A stretch of DNA of 20,215 nt from positions 1-20,215 of the IMG/VR virus record IMGVR_UViG_3300042261_002396; one strand, given 5' to 3'. This document shows positions 4,127-12,876 of the stretch, one piece after another. Below the pieces are notes generated by a model. That model worked only from the letters and a program-made list of their open reading frames with translations, did not search any database and was not told where the DNA came from. A program made the position numbers and the translations under genes. Numbering within the stretch: position 1 is the first letter of the stretch; each line of letters opens with the position of its first letter. The DNA is from a virus.

Positions 4127-6199
4127 ATGAACACCTTTGCAATCGACTTCGAAACCTACTACGACCGCGACTATTCCCTGAAAAAGATGGACGCATATTC
4201 CTATGTCCATCACCCGCAATTCGACTGCTACCTCATGTCCGTCTACGGAGTTGTCCCCAACGTAGACGCGATGCCCTCATCGCGTTCTCTGTTTTCTGGC
4301 ACCTGCCACCCGACACCTGACACTCCTGCACCCGGAACGGAGTTCCTCTGGGTTGGCCACCCGAAGGATTTTAATCAGTGGCATCTTTTTGAAAACGCCA
4401 TTCTCGTCGCTCACAACGCCGCCTTTGACTCTCTCGTTTTTAAACGCCTGCAAGAGAAGGGTATCATTCCTCAAATTGGAAATCCAACATGGCGTTGTTC
4501 CGCATCCCTTGCAGTGTATTTATCAGCACCCCGTTCCCTCAAAGGTGCCTGCAAGCAACTGCTCAATATCGATGTGGACAAAACCCAGCGCAGCAAAGCA
4601 AGCGGACAATCCGGTGCCGATCTGTTTGGCAATGAAGTGATGTTTGCCTATGCCCTTGAAGATGCGCGGCTCTGCTTCCTACTTTGGGAAAAATTCAATC
4701 ACCTATGGCCGGCGGATGAAAAGGAGTTGGCAACATTAACCTTTGAGTGGGCGCAAGAGGGCATAGCGATAGATTTACAAACCTTGGAAAAATCTATCCA
4801 GACACTGGAAACACAACGCTTTAACGCAGTCCAGAATCTGCCTTGGGTGGATGATCCTGACTCCGATACGCCGTTGTCTCACAGCAAACTGGCTTTCACC
4901 TGTCGCGAAGCCGGTATTCCCTGTCCAGTGTCGCTGGCAATGGATGACCCTGATTGCGAAGCGTGGGAAGAAAAGTACGGCCCTGAATATCCGTGGGTGG
5001 ATTCAATGCGCACCTTCCGGCGCACCAATATGCTGCTTTCCCGCTTCTACACCGTCCGCAGTCGCCTCGTTTTCCAAGGTGGAGCGGGCTCTCCGAGCAC
5101 GCTTTCCCCTGTAGCCGAGGGCCGCGACCTCGGTTTCTCACCTAAAGCCTCAAGCCTAAAGTTTCAAGCCTTCTTCCCTTATGCCCTGAAATACTTTGGA
5201 GCTGTTCCCGGTCGCTGGTCAGGTGATGCCGGATTCAATGTGCAGAACATGCCGCGAGGTGAACTGTTTGGCGCCGACCTGCGTAAGTGTTTTGTTCCGA
5301 GCGAAGCTCGCCCTGAGTCGGGTCGAAGGGCAACCACCGATAAAAACGTTTTCATCATCGCCGACCTCTGTCAGATTGAGCCGCGTATTCTCGCATGGCT
5401 GATTGAAGACGAAGCGTTTCTATCTCTCGTTCGCAGTGGTGTGGACATCTATGAGGCTCATGCCCGTTCGACGATGGGGTATTCCGATCCTTCTCCGTTG
5501 AAAGAATCTGATCCCGACAAACGCGCTTTGGCCAAGGCGAGGGTGCTTGGACTTGGCTATGGTTGCGGCCCTCAAAAGTTTGTCACCGTGGCAAAAAATC
5601 TCGGTGGTATCGACATCTCGTTTGCCGACGCAAAGAAAACGGTTGCCGATTTCCGATCAAAGAATCCTCGAATTTCCAGACTTTGGAACCAGCTCGACCG
5701 TGACTTTAAACGCAGTGCCGGGGGTGACTATTCCATCGAACTGCCGTCGGGCCGGATATTACGGTATTTCAATGTGGCTAAGACACCGCGTGGTTATTAT
5801 GCCGCCGCTACCGAACGGGGTGGAAAACTGCGCAGTCTCTACGGTTGCCTGTTGACTGAAAATCTTGTCCAGGCCACAGCCCGTGATCTCTTTGCCCATC
5901 ACCTTCTTGAAATCCACCGCTACCTTAATCCCAATTCCCCTCCTTTGGAGGGGTGGCGGGACGGCGGGGTGGGTTCCCAACCTTCTGCATTCGATATTCC
6001 TTGTTCGACATTCTGCGGTTCAGGCCCTCTGGGCCGCATCGTTTTCCATGTTCACGATGAAGTCATCATTGAAGTTCCCGCATCCCATGCAGCCGAAGCG
6101 CGTAAACAGATTCAAACCATCATGTCCATCACACCCGATTGGCTATCCGGCTGTCCTGTTGCCGCCGAATCCAAAATTTTAAACCGCTACACCAAGTAA
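4127..6199 (+). CDS. Family A DNA polymerase with 3'-5' exonuclease
   Basis: This 690-residue replicative polymerase has two domains. The N-terminal DEDD exonuclease shows IDFETY (D7, E9), the second motif in LVAHNAAFDS and the YALED motif. The polymerase part shows GRWSG with VQNMPRG, motif A (IADLCQIEPRIL, D-x-x-Q-I-E), motif B (K-A-R-V-L-G-L-G-Y-G) and motif C (VHDEV). It would copy the element's DNA with proofreading. It is a phage-type polymerase with no 5' nuclease. Four stretches of micro-repeat origin interrupt surface loops in frame (about residues 53-73, 317-347, 393-405 and 603-635, the last just before motif C), yet all catalytic motifs remain. No clear SD precedes the ATG. Helicase-primase follows at 6460. 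Confidence 0.93.
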   Translation: MNTFAIDFETYYDRDYSLKKMDAYSYVHHPQFDCYLMSVYGVVPNVDAMPSSRSLFSGTCHPTPDTPAPGTEFLWVGHPKDFNQWHLFENAILVAHNAAFDSLVFKRLQEKGIIPQIGNPTWRCSASLAVYLSAPRSLKGACKQLLNIDVDKTQRSKASGQSGADLFGNEVMFAYALEDARLCFLLWEKFNHLWPADEKELATLTFEWAQEGIAIDLQTLEKSIQTLETQRFNAVQNLPWVDDPDSDTPLSHSKLAFTCREAGIPCPVSLAMDDPDCEAWEEKYGPEYPWVDSMRTFRRTNMLLSRFYTVRSRLVFQGGAGSPSTLSPVAEGRDLGFSPKASSLKFQAFFPYALKYFGAVPGRWSGDAGFNVQNMPRGELFGADLRKCFVPSEARPESGRRATTDKNVFIIADLCQIEPRILAWLIEDEAFLSLVRSGVDIYEAHARSTMGYSDPSPLKESDPDKRALAKARVLGLGYGCGPQKFVTVAKNLGGIDISFADAKKTVADFRSKNPRISRLWNQLDRDFKRSAGGDYSIELPSGRILRYFNVAKTPRGYYAAATERGGKLRSLYGCLLTENLVQATARDLFAHHLLEIHRYLNPNSPPLEGWRDGGVGSQPSAFDIPCSTFCGSGPLGRIVFHVHDEVIIEVPASHAAEARKQIQTIMSITPDWLSGCPVAAESKILNRYTK
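4285..4345. repeat. In-frame micro-repeat in the polymerase exonuclease domain
   Basis: A phrase of repeated CACC/GACAC words (CCACCCGACACCTGACACTC). A close relative is at about 1570-1595. It adds about 20 Pro/Thr-rich residues between exonuclease strands. Confidence 0.45.
5080..5170. repeat. In-frame micro-repeat in the polymerase thumb/finger region
   Basis: The stretch contains GGGCTCTCCGAGCACGC, a GAGGGCCGCGACCTC palindrome and the phrase CCTAAAGCCTCAAGCCTAAA, which recurs as CCTAAAGCCTAACCCCTAA at about 6424. It encodes about 30 residues of linker. Confidence 0.45.
5307..5336. repeat. CCCTGAG..TCGAAGGG palindrome in polymerase
   Basis: GCCCTGAG...TCGAAGGGC at 5312-5333 matches the copy at 1137-1158 at most positions. 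Words of this CCCTTCGAC...CTCAGGG type are widely dispersed in bacterial genomes. It is in frame just before motif A. Confidence 0.5.
5935..6030. repeat. 'cccctcctttggagggg' repeat in frame before polymerase motif C
   Basis: CCCCTCCTTTGGAGGGG is a hairpin and is followed by GGCGGGACGGCGGGGTGGG, a familiar dispersed-repeat style. It adds about 30 residues immediately upstream of VHDEV. Confidence 0.5.
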
Positions 6200-6459: not shown

Positions 6460-8565
6460 ATGTTACTTTCCATCCCTAATCTGTCATCTTCCCGCACAAA
6501 ACCCTGCAATCCGTGGTCGGTTTCGTCTTCCGCTCCGCCGAAAACCGATTGGAATAATCCGACTGTTGACCATTGTTTTTATTCGGGTCTCGAAGGTTTG
6601 ATTCAGTCTGCCCGGATTGATTCCAAAAACAATCCCGCTGTTTTTCTGCATTGGTTCGTTGCCGATTACGACGGCCAGATTGACCAGCACATGCGCGATA
6701 CCGTTCTCGACCGCTGTTGCGATTTCAAACCCCAGTATCTTTGCCGCACGTTCTCCGGGGGTGCCCGTCTCCTTTGGAAACTTGAAACCCCGTTTCCGCT
6801 TCATCGCAATGACCTCACCGCAAAGTTCATGCGGCATGTGAAGAAAAAGTTGAAGCTCTCCAAAATTCTGGTTGGGCTCGACGCCGAAGCGTTTGAAGAT
6901 CCCTGTAAATACTACGAAGCCGGTACAAACTGGGTTCATCTCTCCGATGATGTAATCCCGTCTGCGTTCATCATGCAGTGGGCTATTGAGTCCACGCATA
7001 ATTACGCATGGAATAAACTGGGTGATTCGATCCCGATTGACCGCGTTGCTGCCGAAGTTGAAAAGCAGTATCCCGGTCGCTGGCAAGGTGAGTTTTCCGT
7101 CGGTGTACGTGGTGTTCGTTTCTGGGATTCATCCGCTGACAATCAGACAGCCGCAGTCATTCGTGAATCTGGTATGCAGTGTTTTACCGGAGGTCAGGCG
7201 TTTGTTCCGTGGTCAGTGATTCTCGGGGGTCAGTTTGTACGTCAGTTTGAAGCCGACCGGGTAGGGGGCGCTGTTGCTGAAGTCTATTTTGACGGGCGTG
7301 AATACTGGACTTCTTTACCGAACAAACAGTGGCAGGCTTACAATAAATCAGACATCGCTTTGCATTTGAAAGTTGAGCGTGGTCTCAGTGCATCTGTCCC
7401 GCGCGGTTCATCCTACAGCGAAGTCGATCAGGCGCTTCATCGTATTCAGAAGCAGCAGTATATCGCTTGTGCAGCACCGTTGGTTCACCGTCCGAAAGGT
7501 ATCGTTTATCTCAACGGTTTCCGGGTTTTGAATACGTCCAGTGTGGAAATGTTCCAACCTTCGGAAGAGCATGAGGTAGTGCCGAGTCGGGATTTTCCGT
7601 GGTTGGAAAATTATTTTGCGACGTTTTTCGACCCCGTTGAACAGTTGGACTATTTTTATGCTTGGCTCAGGCGTTGGTACTCTTCCGCTCTCGATGGGAA
7701 AATGCTTCCCGGTCAGGCGTCGTTTTTTGCCGGTGTTCCGAACACTGGAAAGACCCTTTTGTCCACCGGTATTCTTTCCCGCATTTTCGGCGGTCATATT
7801 GACGCCAGCAGTTTTCTGTCCGGTGAAGATAATTTCAACAGTCACCTTTTTAACTCCGCTGTCTGGGCCGTTGACGACGTGGTTCCGTTGACCGATACCA
7901 AAACCCATTTGCGCTTTTCCGCTCTCATTAAAAAGATGGCAGCCAATCGTACTTTTTCCGTTCGTGAGAAATACCGGGTGGATAAGTTGATTGAGTGGAA
8001 TGGCAGGGTGGTGGTGACGTGTAATACCGATCCGGAGTCGATTCGCATTCTGCCGGACGTGGATTTGTCGAACCGTGACAAAATCAATCTGTTCCGTGTG
8101 GCTGATCGGGATACGTTTACGTTTCCCCGCAATGTGGCTGACATCATCCAGACTGAATTACCGTTTTTCTTACGCTGGCTTCTCAACTGGACACCGCCGG
8201 ACAACGTCCTTGGCGATTCCCGTTATGGTGTTCAAACCTATTGCGAAACGTCTCTGCTCGATGCCGCACGTCATTCATCCAGCGCCTATTCATTCCTTGA
8301 GGTTTTATTGAAGTTTTTCGAGGGACAGGTTTCCGATGTTTGGACGGGTTCAGCAACAGAGTTGCTGAGTGCCATGTTGAACGACGACGACGGTCTTGCC
8401 GGCATTGCGGCTAAGTACACCACCCGACAGGTTGGGCGCGAACTATCCAAGCTCGCATCCCAAGGCTATCCCATGACGCTTTGCCGACTGGGTTCCAAGC
8501 GGATTTGGACCATCAACATCAAGCAACTGTCGGAAGGAGACACCAATGAACCGGCACCGTTTTAG
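6460..8565 (+). CDS. Primase-helicase: prim-pol plus D5-type SF3 helicase
   Basis: This 701-residue fusion protein has two parts. Residues about 60-145 carry archaeo-eukaryotic primase signatures: FVADYDG (D69, D71), a GGARLLWKL strand in place of motif II, and VGLDAEAFEDP (D141). Residues about 415-560 form a superfamily 3 helicase: Walker A GVPNTGKT (425-432), Walker B AVWAVDDV, and a sensor Asn in VVVTCNTDPES. The tail is helical, likely winged-helix. It would lay primers and unwind DNA during element replication, as in phage NrS-1 and P4-like systems. An AAGGA site lies 6 nt before the ATG. Codons are visibly T-rich (TTT, CGT, GTT) compared with the capsid genes, which suggests a separate origin for this segment. 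Its end is followed by an iteron/AT-rich origin candidate. Confidence 0.9.
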   Translation: MLLSIPNLSSSRTKPCNPWSVSSSAPPKTDWNNPTVDHCFYSGLEGLIQSARIDSKNNPAVFLHWFVADYDGQIDQHMRDTVLDRCCDFKPQYLCRTFSGGARLLWKLETPFPLHRNDLTAKFMRHVKKKLKLSKILVGLDAEAFEDPCKYYEAGTNWVHLSDDVIPSAFIMQWAIESTHNYAWNKLGDSIPIDRVAAEVEKQYPGRWQGEFSVGVRGVRFWDSSADNQTAAVIRESGMQCFTGGQAFVPWSVILGGQFVRQFEADRVGGAVAEVYFDGREYWTSLPNKQWQAYNKSDIALHLKVERGLSASVPRGSSYSEVDQALHRIQKQQYIACAAPLVHRPKGIVYLNGFRVLNTSSVEMFQPSEEHEVVPSRDFPWLENYFATFFDPVEQLDYFYAWLRRWYSSALDGKMLPGQASFFAGVPNTGKTLLSTGILSRIFGGHIDASSFLSGEDNFNSHLFNSAVWAVDDVVPLTDTKTHLRFSALIKKMAANRTFSVREKYRVDKLIEWNGRVVVTCNTDPESIRILPDVDLSNRDKINLFRVADRDTFTFPRNVADIIQTELPFFLRWLLNWTPPDNVLGDSRYGVQTYCETSLLDAARHSSSAYSFLEVLLKFFEGQVSDVWTGSATELLSAMLNDDDGLAGIAAKYTTRQVGRELSKLASQGYPMTLCRLGSKRIWTINIKQLSEGDTNEPAPF

Positions 8566-8818
8566 TGACGTTGTGACATGTGACATCATGTTTTCAAAAG
8601 TCTCTCAGCTCCCTGTATTCAGCCTGCCTGTGGGCGTCCTGCGCTCTTTCTCTATATTCTATATTACTTTTATAAATAATAAAAATAACGTCACAACGTC
8701 ACTAGCCAATGTTTACAGGCCTTTCCTCGGTGACGTTAAGGTGACGTTTTCTCTTTTCGTGCCTGTTTCTGTCCGTTCTGTCCTTTTCCCTGCCATCCAG
8801 CCGGAGTCTGTTTTATGA
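8546..8818 (+). CDS. Doubtful 90-residue ORF overlapping the origin candidate
   Basis: The ORF starts at an ATG with a good AAGGAG site 6-7 nt upstream. It overlaps the primase end by 20 bp and ends in ATGA overlapping the next start (8815). Both ends therefore look coupled. The product has a hydrophobic, Val/Phe/Ser-rich sequence with no recognised domain. The DNA contains iterons and an AT-rich tract, so the frame may be open by chance or serve only to carry ribosomes to 8815. Confidence 0.3.
   Translation: MNRHRFSDVVTCDIMFSKVSQLPVFSLPVGVLRSFSIFYITFINNKNNVTTSLANVYRPFLGDVKVTFSLFVPVSVRSVLFPAIQPESVL
8563..8748. other. Candidate replication origin: GTGACGTT iterons around an AT-rich tract
   Basis: TAGTGACGTTGTGAC (8563-8577) is repeated perfectly inverted at 8690-8704. 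GTGACGTT words lie at 8565-8572, inverted in tandem at 8687-8694 and 8695-8702, and direct at 8730-8737 and 8741-8748. Between the arms, 8650-8689 is very AT-rich (TATATTCTATATTAC, TATAAATAATAAAAATAA). Iterons beside an easily melted tract just after the helicase gene are the classic pattern of a plasmid or phage origin. Binding by the primase-helicase is inferred. Confidence 0.5.
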
Positions 8819-9258
8819 ACTGTCATTCCTGTCCCCATCACGAAGATGTCATCCGCGGTGTTTACCGTGCGAACCCTTGGGCTGAATCTCCCTGTGCCGC
8901 CTGCAAGTTGAACGAGATTGCGACCTATGCCGTTCCGTTGGACGCAGACCATCCGCCGGAGGATGCGATTACCGATTTGACCTCTGATCTCTATCCTCCG
9001 TCGGGCGATTCCCAGTTGCTTCCGTCCGATATTCTATCGCAGTTTGTACAGGGTTTTCTCAATCTTCCCCCTGAGCAGCGGGATGTTATTTCGTGGCGGT
9101 ATCAGGGGTTGCAGTACAAAGAGATTGCCGAACGTCAGGGTGTTACGGTTTCGTGTGTTGAGAAGCGACACAGACTTGCCATGCGGGATTGGCCTGTTCT
9201 GGAATCTTTATTCCCGTTCAAAGTTGCCTGTCGCCGCTATCGCCGCTCCCGAAAGTAG
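8815..9258 (+). CDS. Sigma-70 region 4-like regulator with N-terminal zinc motif
   Basis: This 147-residue protein has an N-terminal pair of CxxC motifs (C3, C6 and C27, C30) that probably binds zinc. Residues about 74-130 form a sigma-70 region 4 domain: LPPEQRDVISWRYQGLQYKE, then the HTH to about residue 122. There is no region 2, so it is not a complete sigma factor. Region-4-only proteins act as phage late regulators (ArpU-like) or bind -35-like DNA. It sits at the end of the replication module and before the packaging genes, the expected place of a late-gene switch. The repeat-A sequences at 11330, 12876, 14099, 14653 and 18478 are possible targets, but this is untested. A weak GGAG lies about 8-9 nt upstream. 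Confidence 0.7.
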   Translation: MNCHSCPHHEDVIRGVYRANPWAESPCAACKLNEIATYAVPLDADHPPEDAITDLTSDLYPPSGDSQLLPSDILSQFVQGFLNLPPEQRDVISWRYQGLQYKEIAERQGVTVSCVEKRHRLAMRDWPVLESLFPFKVACRRYRRSRK

Positions 9259-9305: not shown

Positions 9306-9398
9306 GACGCGTAGTTGATAACCTGCTACGGTTAATTTTGGGAAAAACCGTTTTCAAAGTGATGTCTGATTGTGCTGATGGAAAGGGGAATTCTATTG

Positions 9399-9626
9399 AT
9401 GAGAAACACATTTGGAATAAATGTTTTGCGGTCAACCGCAGGACTTCTGCTTTTAATCGTTGCGGGATGCAATACTATTAAAGACGGATGGAATTATAGT
9501 CCCTATAACTCAGAAAGTAGTAAAAAATATCAGGAAAGGTACGGGGATAAATACGATTACATGAAAAAATCTGATAGTCGCAGCGCTCCTTTTTTTACAC
9601 CGGTAGATATGGGGGGGCGGGAATAA
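9399..9626 (+). CDS. Small lipoprotein, probable cargo gene
   Basis: This 75-residue protein starts with a charged n-region, a hydrophobic stretch (STAGLLLLIV) and the lipobox VAGC at about residues 20-23. It would be exported, lipidated on Cys and anchored in a membrane. The mature part is about 50 residues, rich in Tyr, Ser, Asp and Lys (KYQERYGDKYDYMKK). I do not recognise its family. I prefer the ATG at 9399 to the GTG at 9372 because it gives a normal signal peptide and follows a GGAAAGGGG purine tract at about 10 nt. It has its own promoter, AT-richer coding than its neighbours and no partner gene, which is the pattern of a 'moron' (a gene added to a prophage and expressed in the lysogen). 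Confidence 0.72.
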   Translation: MRNTFGINVLRSTAGLLLLIVAGCNTIKDGWNYSPYNSESSKKYQERYGDKYDYMKKSDSRSAPFFTPVDMGGRE

Positions 9627-9793
9627 GCCAATATCGTTTTCGGCCTGAGGCTGTAATGGCCAATCATTTATTATTAAGAATTTTTTTGTTGATCTTCTCT
9701 CTACGGTCTCGTGCAATCAAGTGTCTTTTGTCGCCGGGACTTCAATCGTACCTCATTCAGCCCGTCGCCAAAATTCGCTTCATTGCACTCGCC

Positions 9794-9823
9794 CCCCCCA
9801 AGCCCCCCAAATGGGGGATGTAG
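9794..9823. repeat. C-run/G-run repeat, copy 1
   Basis: A 30-bp unit: CCCCCCAAGCCCCCC, a short spacer, a G-run and GATGTAG. The C and G runs can pair. On the minus strand two long G tracts separated by CTT could also form a quadruplex. Nearly identical to 9954-9983. Confidence 0.65.
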
Positions 9824-9849
9824 CCGCGCAAAAGGAATTGTTCCGCAGC

Positions 9850-9912
9850 TTGAAACGCTTCACGGTTTTTGTCTGGTTATCCTTCGGAGTTGTTTCCCGT
9901 GAATCGTTTCAA
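9850..9912. repeat. Long imperfect inverted repeat between the two C-run repeats
   Basis: TTGAAACG-c-TTCACGG (9850-9865) pairs with CCGTGAA-t-CGTTTCAA (9897-9912): 15 of 16 positions, with a 31-nt loop. On the minus strand the single mismatch is A opposite G. It lies between the two C-run repeats. Confidence 0.6.
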
Positions 9913-9953
9913 ACATGCTCCACAAATCCTTTTTTAGCGCGGGTTGTATTTGA

Positions 9954-9983
9954 CCCCCCAAGCCCCCCGATGGGGGGATGTAG
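9954..9983. repeat. C-run/G-run repeat, copy 2
   Basis: The second copy of the 30-bp unit, ending GGGGGGATGTAG. It lies at the left border of the hairpin-dense region. Read on the minus strand it would sit at the 3' end of a putative RNA. Confidence 0.65.
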
Positions 9984-9989
9984 TTAAAC

Positions 9990-11300
9990 GGCCCGAACCG
10001 GCTCTTCATCGTTCCACCCTGCGAGCCTCCTACGGTTGCTACGCAACCGGCCTCGGCTCTTGGGTGTCCGATTCAGTGCCGGAACGGGCCTTCTACCTCA
10101 GCAGTCCGCTGATCCCGCAACATCATGGCGCTCGAATACATCGCGCCATCATGTTTCGGGGCGGACTCCCTCGGGCTGCCTGCTGTTGCAGGCAACACTC
10201 CGTGGGGTGGTATTGGTTGAACGCAGACCGGTTCAGTTCCGGACGATAGCCGGAATTCACCGGCCAGCTCTCGGGGAATTAGCTCGGCGGCCACGCTCAA
10301 GGGTCTCGCAACCGCTGAATACAGCGGACCGGCCAACATCGCATAATTGATCAATTATGCAACGTGGGCCTTTGCTCAACCCTTTCGCTCAACAGAACGG
10401 GTTCTGTCAGGGCCGCCTCGCGCTCATCCGTCCGGCTGTGTTCAGCCGTTCCGTCTTCGCAGGGCTCAGCCCGCACCGGCTCGCGCCCTCGCACGGTACC
10501 GGGCTTCGATGGCCTCAACGTTTTCACTTGTCCCGCTCCACCGGAGAAGCAAACCCACCCGCTGGGCGGGTTTTCCTCTCGGCGTTTGCTCTGCAAAAGC
10601 CTCACTCCTTTCCCAGTGGGAAGCCCCCGCTTCGCGCCCGCTTCCCCCTCGGCCTTCGGCCTCACCCCTTTTCCCCAAAGCTGTCACGGTTTCGTGCTGG
10701 CTCCTTCGTCGCGGCAGAAACCGCGCCAGCCCCGCGTTTCAGCCAATCTCTGTTGTGGGGTGTTTCACTCCAGAGCCGAGCCCGACGAAAACCCGAGCCC
10801 GGAATACCGGCCAAGGGTTTTCTCTGGGCCCAGCTCTTCCGTTCCCCCGAAGAGAGTTCCTTGCCGGCGGCTTTTGCTTGCCTGCCGGAGTTGCCATGCC
10901 TCCAGCCCTTCGTCTGGAATCTAACGCCTTTTCTTTTACGCCGCCGTCTGCGGAATATTCCGCCGCTGTTGCGTCGTCGCCGTTCCGGCTCCCCTGCGGG
11001 GCGCGGTAGGCTTGGCAGCTGAATTTCGCCTTCGGCGATTCCGCCCCTCGGCGTTACAGCGTCCCGCTATACCGCCTCGGCGCGGCCAATTTTCCACCCG
11101 AGCCGCGAGGCGAGAGAGGCTGGCGCTATTGCGACGGCAACGGAACGCAGTGAAGTGGCAACCCTTGGAATTTCTTCTTCCAACCTCTGGAATCCCATTC
11201 GGCATTCACCAATGCTTGGGGCCCCCGCTGCGCGTGCCCCCCATAAAATGGGGCCCCGTGCGCTACGCGCCCACTGTTTTTCATTGTTCCAGCAATACCT
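9990..11300 (-). ncRNA. Candidate large structured non-coding RNA
   Basis: No family is recognised. Helices visible by eye (plus-strand positions): 10023-10059 (5 bp plus 7 bp); 10114-10160 (4+5+7 bp with single mismatches); 10177-10194 (7 bp); 10228-10263 (4+6 bp); 10341-10360 (perfect palindrome); 10392-10407; 10433-10448 (6 bp); 10770-10827 (6+7+4 bp, nested); 10950-10963; 11074-11111 (5+5 bp). I favour the minus strand because loops there are A-rich (AACA, GAA, GTA) and the mismatches in 10114-10160 become A-G and G-G, common in RNA, instead of C-U and C-C. Ends are unknown; no convincing promoter or U-tract terminator was found. Large ornate RNAs such as GOLLD and ROOL are known from phage regions, but I cannot assign this one. 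Confidence 0.4.
10341..10360. repeat. Perfect 20-bp AT-rich palindrome
   Basis: GCATAATTGATCAATTATGC is a perfect palindrome in a GC-rich setting. As RNA it gives an 8-bp stem with a GATC loop on either strand. As DNA it could be a dimer-binding operator. Confidence 0.6.
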
Positions 11301-11329: not shown

Positions 11330-11356
11330 GGTTGATTCCGGCTCTTTAGATGAGGA
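11330..11356 (+). repeat. Repeat A, copy 1 (upstream of TerS)
   Basis: GGTTGATTCCGGCTCTTTAG followed by ATGAGGAG, whose GAGGAG is the SD for the ATG at 11363. One of five related copies. Confidence 0.7.
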
Positions 11357-11362
11357 GATTTT

Positions 11363-11752
11363 ATGCCTTTTGAACCCGGACAATCTGGAAACCCCGCAGG
11401 CCGCCCCAAAAGGGCGAAGAGCGGTCGCATGTTCGCACTCGACGCGCTTGACGGCCTGCTCCAGGACGAAGGTGTTTTAGAAACCCTGCGCGAAGGACTC
11501 CAGAAAGCTCTGGAGCGCGACCCGGTCTGGTTTTTCCGCCGCATCATCATGCCTCTGCTTCCCAAGGAAGCGTCACTTCAAATTGAAAACAACGGAGTCG
11601 TGTCATGGCTGTCACTCTCAACTACCGTCCCCACCGAGGCCAGCAGGTTATCCACGATGCCCGCAACAAACGGTTCCGGGTCATCTGCACCGGGCGACGG
11701 TTCGGAAAGACACTCTGTCTTGCCGGAGAGCTGCTCGACCGTGGAGCCTTAG
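11363..11752 (+). CDS. Terminase small subunit-like, DUF5681 N-terminus
   Basis: This 129-residue ORF opens with the DUF5681 signature (FEPGQSGNPAGRPK, residues 3-16), often found in small terminase or DNA-packaging proteins just before TerL. Helices to about residue 68 look normal. A good GAGGAG site precedes the ATG within repeat A1. From about residue 82 it overlaps TerL for 148 bp, and that part is Ser/Thr-rich low complexity, simply the +1-frame reading of the TerL start. The natural protein may therefore have been about 80-95 residues and lost its stop by a frameshift, or the overlap may be tolerated. It would recognise packaging DNA. The role is inferred from position and signature. 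Confidence 0.65.
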   Translation: MPFEPGQSGNPAGRPKRAKSGRMFALDALDGLLQDEGVLETLREGLQKALERDPVWFFRRIIMPLLPKEASLQIENNGVVSWLSLSTTVPTEASRLSTMPATNGSGSSAPGDGSERHSVLPESCSTVEP

Positions 11753-12876
11753 CCCCCGGCGACTACGGATGGATTGCTCCGACCTACAACGTGGCGGAAC
11801 GCGGTATCGAAGCCTTGCGCGATATTGCCGGCGGCTTTGTGCGCTTCATCGGGCGGACTCCGACTCGTGCCGAGTTTGACGGTCCGTACGGCACCACTCG
11901 CATCTGGTTTCTGTCTGCCGACAATCCCGAAAATATTCGCGGCTACGGATTTCGCGGCGTGGTGGTGGACGAGGCCGCCGTCATTCCGCCGGATGTCTGG
12001 AACTACGTCCTGCGCCCGACGATTGCACAGACGCTGGGCTGGGCCGTGTTCATCTCGACCCCGAAAGGCCGCAACTGGTTTTACGATCTGTTCACACGCG
12101 GACAGGATTCGCACGAGAGCGGATACGAATCGTTTCAATTTTCCAGCGCGGATAGCCCGTATTTTCCGTCTCAGGAATGGGAGGATGCCAAACGGACGCT
12201 GCCGTCTGATGTTTTCCGGCAGGAGTACGAGGCACAGTTCCTTGAAGATTCTGCCGGGGTTTTCCGCAACGTTTCGTCCTGTTTGTTCCCCGATAGGGCT
12301 TTGACCCGCGAAGACCGCGCGGGGGCGGTGGTTATTGGATGCGACATCGCCAAGCACACCGACTTTACCGTGCTCGTTGCCATGAACCAGCGCACTGGCC
12401 GTTGCTTCGAAATAGAACGCTTTAACCAGCTCGACTGGCCGATCCAGAAAGACCGCATCCTCAGCTTTTCCCGAAAATGGCAGGGCCGTGTAATTTTGGA
12501 CGCCACCGGAGCAGGGGATCCGATCTATGACGATCTCACCCGCCGCTATTCCAATATCGAACCGTTCAAGTTTACTGCTCAGTCCAAAGTGGAACTTGTC
12601 CAGCGGCTCATTGTTGCGGTCGAACAGCAGAAAGTTAGCTGGCCGCAGGAATGGCAGGTACTGACCAACGAAATGCAGCGCTATGAATACGAAATTTCCC
12701 CGCGCGGCCACATCAGCTACAACGCCCCGGCGGGCTTTCACGATGACTGTGTCATGGCGCTCGCCCTCGCCAATCACCGCCGATGGGAAGCTGAATCCTG
12801 CGGCTCGATGATGCCCCTTGCGCACAAAGGCCGCTTTTCACCGTTCGCCGCTCGGCCCCGGATTATGAACGGGTAG
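11605..12876 (+). CDS. terL: Terminase large subunit
   Basis: This 423-residue packaging motor and nuclease has the N-terminal ATPase motifs: Walker A in CTGRRFGKT (about residues 30-38), Walker B GVVVDEAA (about 119-126) and the coupling-motif region FISTPKGRNW. The C-terminal RNase H-fold nuclease shows three acidic positions: GCDIAKHTDFTVLV, VILDATGAGDP and FHDDCVMALA. It would cut concatemeric DNA and pump it into the prohead through the portal. The ATG at 11605 fits family starts (a Pro-rich segment then HDARNKRFRVICTGRR). The GGAG site is about 8 nt upstream, inside the TerS ORF. The stop codon overlaps repeat A2. Confidence 0.93.
   Translation: MAVTLNYRPHRGQQVIHDARNKRFRVICTGRRFGKTLCLAGELLDRGALAPGDYGWIAPTYNVAERGIEALRDIAGGFVRFIGRTPTRAEFDGPYGTTRIWFLSADNPENIRGYGFRGVVVDEAAVIPPDVWNYVLRPTIAQTLGWAVFISTPKGRNWFYDLFTRGQDSHESGYESFQFSSADSPYFPSQEWEDAKRTLPSDVFRQEYEAQFLEDSAGVFRNVSSCLFPDRALTREDRAGAVVIGCDIAKHTDFTVLVAMNQRTGRCFEIERFNQLDWPIQKDRILSFSRKWQGRVILDATGAGDPIYDDLTRRYSNIEPFKFTAQSKVELVQRLIVAVEQQKVSWPQEWQVLTNEMQRYEYEISPRGHISYNAPAGFHDDCVMALALANHRRWEAESCGSMMPLAHKGRFSPFAARPRIMNG

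Follow-up and report, generated by a model that had tools for sequence, protein, structure and literature searches.

To our knowledge, only a few giant phage RNAs have been described, and none has an established function. GOLLD is encoded by phages or prophages, many of its members are longer than 800 nt, and its elaborate secondary structure includes a conserved part and a more variable part, the function being unknown (PMC12286853). ROOL (Rumen-Originating, Ornate, Large), also large and structured, occurs in phages and prophages, and neither its function nor a protein partner is known (PMC12286853). The stretch of viral DNA analyzed here very probably encodes, as judged from its sequence, a large folded RNA that is absent from the catalogues. 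A search, not complete, of the open-access literature found no earlier account of an RNA of this type next to terminase genes.

The window, 20,215 nt in length, is the complete IMG/VR virus record IMGVR_UViG_3300042261_002396 of an uncultured virus of bacteria. It carries the gene set of a temperate phage, including PolA-type DNA polymerase, primase-like protein, sigma-like regulator, terminase, portal, protease, major head protein, and integrase, and no tRNA genes were detected in it. Between the replication genes and the DNA-packaging genes, a total of 1.7 kb without a convincing gene separates a small ORF downstream of the regulator (9372-9626) from the start of the small terminase gene, and the element is located within this gap (Table 1). 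Homologues of the regulator flank the gap on its left side in seven related loci (L005, L006, L104, L007, L105, L106, and L111).

Table 1. Positions of the candidate RNA, its domains and the neighboring features in the window
Feature	Position	Strand	Evidence or description
Sigma-70 region-4-like regulator (probable late regulator), left conserved neighbor	8815..9258	+	Pfam Sigma70_r4_2
Candidate large structured non-coding RNA, approximate extent	9690..11060	-	Conserved in L005, L006, L104; non-coding; covariation; fold z
Left-hand (3') hairpin domain	9708..9791	-	Loop GAAUGAGGUACGAWUG identical in four phages, stems differ
Long helix GUCCGC-CCCG...CGGG-AUCA-GCGGAC closed by CAUGAUG/CAUCAUG hairpin	10095..10176	-	In best-scoring single-sequence window
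Hairpin GGCCGG-UGAAUUCC...GGAACUGAA-CCGGUC	10223..10268	-	Conserved internal loop, covarying stem
Core multibranch domain	10275..10429	-	Long closing stem, AGAA-NNNN-UUCU hairpin, long palindromic-stem hairpin, third hairpin
Module M1, 15 pairs	10674..10736	-	Covariance model R1 matches in distant phages; covariation
Stacked helices CCAGAG/CTCTGG, AAAACCC/GGGTTTT, CCGG/CCGG	10767..10843	-	Present in window, L006 and L104, mostly lost in L005
Repeated motif GTTGATTCCGSCTCTTTARRTRGAGG before TerS	11331..11356	+	Further copies at 12876, 14100, 14654
Probable terminase small subunit TerS, right conserved neighbor	11363..11752	+	Pfam DUF5681; adjoins TerL
Terminase large subunit TerL	11605..12876	+	PHROG phrog_2

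Conservation and coding capacity of the element

Two relatives (L005 and L006) were identified by a TerL search (82-85% TerL identity), and a DNA pattern yielded L092, which is the same contig as the third relative, L104. L005, L006, and L104 carry the region at the same place, with about 73-84% identity where aligned. No match was found by blastn, at its sensitivity, among GenBank phages or PLSDB plasmids.

The initial annotation had placed a structured RNA at 9990-11300. The structured part was confirmed up to about 11,000, but the element was found to extend further left, to approximately 9690, the conserved left-hand hairpin domain lying beyond the proposed start. To the right of about 11,000, 240-nt windows fold like shuffled sequences (z about 0) and conservation is poor; a helix proposed at 11074-11111 is located at the margin of the conserved part or outside it. 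Four other proposed helices (10114-10160, 10770-10827, 10023-10059, and 10177-10194) are all recovered when the minus strand is folded. In the relatives, compensatory changes preserve the helix at 10177-10194 and the outer part of that at 10114-10160, and the stacked helices of 10770-10827 are kept in three of the four phages, while the helix at 10023-10059 was seen only in the window and L104.

Overlapping plus-strand ORFs of 186-221 amino acids exist in three frames over the element, but with the window as reference, 43 of the 44 indels relative to L005, L006, and L104 are out of frame. The substitutions in the longest open frame are spread evenly over the three codon positions (48/42/42, 25/30/27, and 22/26/16 for the three relatives), whereas the portal (53/33/142) and TerL (62/31/184) genes, compared between the window and L104 as controls, show the third-position excess. 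The element is thus non-coding, as was initially proposed; its long ORFs reflect a stop-poor composition, and a protein-coding gene over the element was rejected.

The alignment of the window, L005, L006, and L104 gave 208 consensus pairs, of which 95% of cells are paired. Among these, 34 pairs are changed on both sides, as against 12 on average and at most 21 when the 3' letters were redealt in 300 shuffles and 3-10 in slid controls, although the consensus was derived from the same alignment, which favors it over the slid controls and less so over the shuffles; with three close relatives found to carry this RNA itself, most pairs rest on a small number of changes, and L005 contributes many of these. 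The divergence of the long-range helices is about that of the neighboring genes. Codon-level conservation, or a lack of covariation among homologues, had been named beforehand as grounds for giving up a structured RNA. Both were examined, and since codon-level conservation is absent and covariation is strong, the reading as a large structured RNA is supported.

Domains and strand of the element

In the core multibranch domain, 10 of the 52 pairs are changed on both sides as against three in shuffles (none of 500 shuffles was as high), and its fold z on the minus strand is -10.8. Covariance model R2, built from this domain, matched only in the four close relatives and none outside them, and a second copy of the core is absent from the 20 kb of the window. 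In a scan of host genomes, the AGAA-NNNN-UUCU hairpin matched a single Pectobacterium contig, which showed no other likeness and was taken as a chance match. L005 carries the loop of the left-hand domain twice, the second time nearly unchanged but on a different stem.

In OLE and, by dinucleotide, in GOLLD, palindrome switching is reported to characterize symmetric kissing loops between RNA copies (PMC12286853). The hairpin loop at 10348-10353 carries the self-complementary sequences GAUC, AAUU, and GCGC in three phages, but GGGC in L005, where the kissing-loop reading fails; this one hairpin in four sequences would faintly hint at self-assembly by kissing loops, and the loop palindromes may also be protein sites in DNA. 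At 10341-10360, the window carries the perfect 20-bp palindrome GCATAATTGATCAATTATGC, and a different perfect palindrome, GCATAATGAATTCATTATGC, occupies the same place in L006. A C-rich palindromic repeat (CCCCCCAAGCCCCCC-ATGGGGGGATGTAG), with two copies in the window (9792-9823 and 9954-9983) and shared with L006 and L104, has the look of a small repeat or mobile element within the left part of the RNA.

The element is biased in strand. Over 10060-11010, the minus strand folds with a z against shuffles of -13.1, the plus strand with one of -6.5, and 240-nt minus-strand windows over 9961-10440 rank among the strongest folds of the whole record, the best of them starting at 9961, 10081, and 10201 (z of -11.1, -6.5, and -5.9). 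Polarity on the minus strand is supported because the consensus energy is lower on this strand (-182 as against -146 kcal/mol), its unpaired positions are rich in A (0.33, with U at 0.14), one pair of M1 is G-U in nine of ten copies and A-U in the tenth (the opposite strand would give A-C in those nine), and GCGNAGC hairpin words are strand-specific over the set of loci (66 as against 21 expected on the RNA-like strand, 11 as against 12 on the other). The A-rich minus-strand loops and the preference for minus-strand transcription in the initial annotation agree with these values. In a stricter count, restricted to pairs predicted on both strands, G-U and A-C cells numbered 5 and 3, which does not separate the strands. 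Much of the same asymmetry would also appear in single-stranded DNA.

A sigma-70-type promoter for the element was looked for and not found, though the promoters of the host may be of another type. AAGGAG loops are enriched (18 as against 7.3, the copies not being independent), and a possible ribosome mimicry by these loops may be taken as a lead.

The regulator-terminase gap in more distant phages

One module of the element, M1, is shared with divergent phages. It was first spotted by visual inspection of L007 and L008 (64-66% TerL identity) as the pattern CUGGCRCG-stem-loop-stem-CGUGACAG, and each of these loci carries three copies with different stems. M1 is composed of an outer stem, a collar (GGCRCG...CGUGAC) with a conserved G.A mismatch and the G-U pair, a covarying inner stem, and the loop GCGACGAAGGAGCC. 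All six matches of a strict-rule scan over 858 kb of loci fell inside the gaps of L007 and L008. Covariance model R1, made from ten copies, recovered these copies at E values of 1e-9 to 1e-13 and detected a held-out copy on the minus strand of L105 (E=2.4e-4), the next matches, outside the element, being at E 0.2. Covarying cells of M1 numbered 23, as against 8 in shuffles. Altogether M1 is present in seven phages, in up to three copies per locus and always within the regulator-to-terminase gap; it was not found in further phages of the portal search. The loop word GACGAAGG is common to the window family, L008, and L105 (10 as against 0.7 expected, the copies being partly dependent). The RNA-like strand is the minus strand in the window, L005, L006, L104, and L105, and the plus strand in L007 and L008.

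Presence of the element is patchy. In L106, L108, and L111 (61-64% TerL identity), the gap holds tandem GC-rich structured units of about 320 nt, with 13 pairs changed on both sides, compensatory changes between units, and z of -8.1; no sequence kinship of these units to the RNA of the window was detectable. The arrays extend over 3273-4299 in L106, 2773-4289 in L108, and 3158-4408 in L111, the last with two alternating types. In L150, whose terminase and portal belong to the same family and whose gene layout is ordinary, about 140 bases separate the neighboring ORF from TerS. The element is accessory because L150 leaves no room for any element. The slot is thus retained, what fills it changes rapidly in evolution, and at least one relative can do without it.

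Other repeats and inserts were observed in these loci. Between the RNA and TerS, TTCCAA-N-TTGGAA repeats with a spacing of about 30 bases are present in L005 (about 5190-5500) and L006 (about 5060-5450), and about three degenerate copies are present near 11160-11220 of the window. The motif GTTGATTCCGSCTCTTTARGTAGAGG is repeated on the plus strand at the four sites of the window given in Table 1, in L005 (5685, 9341, 11327, and 11969), and in L006 (5685 and 8970), before terminase, portal, and protease and also within the protease gene; before TerS of L007, L008, and L105, GTTGA with a hairpin of a different stem was noticed by eye. The repeated motif (GTTGATTCCGSCTCTTTARRTRGAGG / GTTGATTCCGSCTCTTTARGTAGAGG) is probably a plus-strand late promoter or an operator of the sigma-like regulator. 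Gene cargo absent from the window is inserted in relatives between TerL and portal and between portal and protease (L005, 7266-9342 and 10517-11300; L104, 7270-8660; L007, 7350-10590), and these positions are further accessory slots. Directly after TerL in L007, a group II intron domain was matched (7548-7713; Rfam RF02001, E=1e-16).

Interpretation and comparison with known large RNAs

The explanation we favor, with some confidence, is a structured non-coding RNA of about 1.3 kb on the minus strand, accessory to the phage and acting in trans as a scaffold or multimeric particle. The RNA would be transcribed from the strand opposite to the phage genes, be composed of several hairpin and multibranch domains, and form an accessory unit of a clade of uncultured temperate phages, held in a fixed slot between the sigma-like late regulator and the small terminase gene. 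The RNA itself should work in trans, folding by domains, with purine-rich loops and internal loops presenting conserved contact motifs (M1, the GACGAAGGAG loop, and the GAAUGAGGUACGAWUG loop), and might form a complex with itself or with a protein. By analogy with what is supposed for GOLLD and ROOL, it may serve as a scaffold or multimeric particle in the phage cycle.

The strand-specific GCGNAGC words would also fit a single-stranded DNA element with hairpins on an exposed strand, for example a replication origin, a primosome site, or a packaging site. GCGNAGC is very stable as a single-stranded DNA hairpin, and the element adjoins TerS and TerL. L150, however, has a gap of only about 140 bases in spite of its related terminase and portal, the orientation with respect to the genes is not the same in all relatives, and a 1.3-kb multibranch structure with its largely invariant G-U pair exceeds what known sites use. 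Such a DNA element is therefore considered unlikely.

The location between a probable late regulator and the late genes, antisense to them in the window, could suit a cis-acting or antisense regulatory RNA of the late operon, that is, a long antisense transcript or a leader tuning the expression of regulator or terminase. The RNA-like strand of L007 and L008 is, however, co-directional with the genes, and therefore one cis role cannot serve both arrangements; in addition, the conserved part overlaps neither gene, and the repeated late motif is located at the genes themselves. We judge this role to be improbable.

An insertion hot spot, in which hairpin-rich repeats spread as DNA without function for the phage, would account for the patchy presence and variable length, the C-rich palindromic repeats, the TTCCAA-TTGGAA arrays of L005 and L006, and the tandem units of L106, L108, and L111. 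This explanation is quite improbable, as the core is single in the window, and the compensatory changes seen in the long-range helices, which have diverged about as much as the neighboring genes, require selection on structure. Finally, a protein gene in one of the three plus-strand frames, open for up to 221 amino acids, or in a frame of the minus strand, has a negligible probability in view of the out-of-frame indels and the even substitutions.

Within the favored reading of a trans-acting structured RNA, a more specific proposal is put forward tentatively: a new class of giant phage RNA that self-assembles into a particle and is built from modules shuffled, duplicated, and flipped between phages, while one terminase-side slot is kept. 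Its reusable modules would be M1, the GACGAAGGAG loops, and the loops of the left-hand domain. A further class unrelated in sequence, in a slot filled among its relatives by several different structured RNAs, of which some have one small module in common, would suggest that phages have repeatedly recruited large structural RNAs. Presence or absence in close relatives, together with one shared module, provides a handle for asking about function.

In Rfam 15, searched at a permissive threshold (E up to 5) with the window and five relatives, no family, including GOLLD, ROOL, and OLE, matched the element, in line with the new or divergent family suggested in the initial annotation. The best Rfam match of the window, HepC_CRE (878-1028, E=0.026), was rejected, being outside the element and far below the gathering score. 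A group II intron is also a large structured RNA, but the same search that finds one in L007 gives no model match in the element, which has no intron-encoded protein and interrupts no gene. The element resembles OLE as a large ornate bacterial RNA, but differs in the lack of a model match.

Like GOLLD, the element is phage-encoded, large, and ornate, with a conserved and a more variable part. It differs in having no match to the GOLLD covariance model and in its position between late regulator and terminase; GOLLD is often, though not necessarily, found near tRNA islands; the element is phage-located, in a window without tRNA. GOLLD forms a homo-multimeric RNA cage, and the palindrome-switching loop in three of the four phages might hint at a comparable assembly. 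The element is a large structured phage RNA as ROOL is, but it is about twice the 659 nt of the structure-solved ROOL and has neither a match to its model nor tRNA neighbors. Because the Rfam models do not match and the frequent tRNA setting is lacking, the element is classed, on sequence grounds, as a member of neither GOLLD nor ROOL. Nevertheless, it is non-coding, conserved in structure, and located in phage genomes, all features of the large structured phage RNAs, and it is like GOLLD and ROOL in kind.
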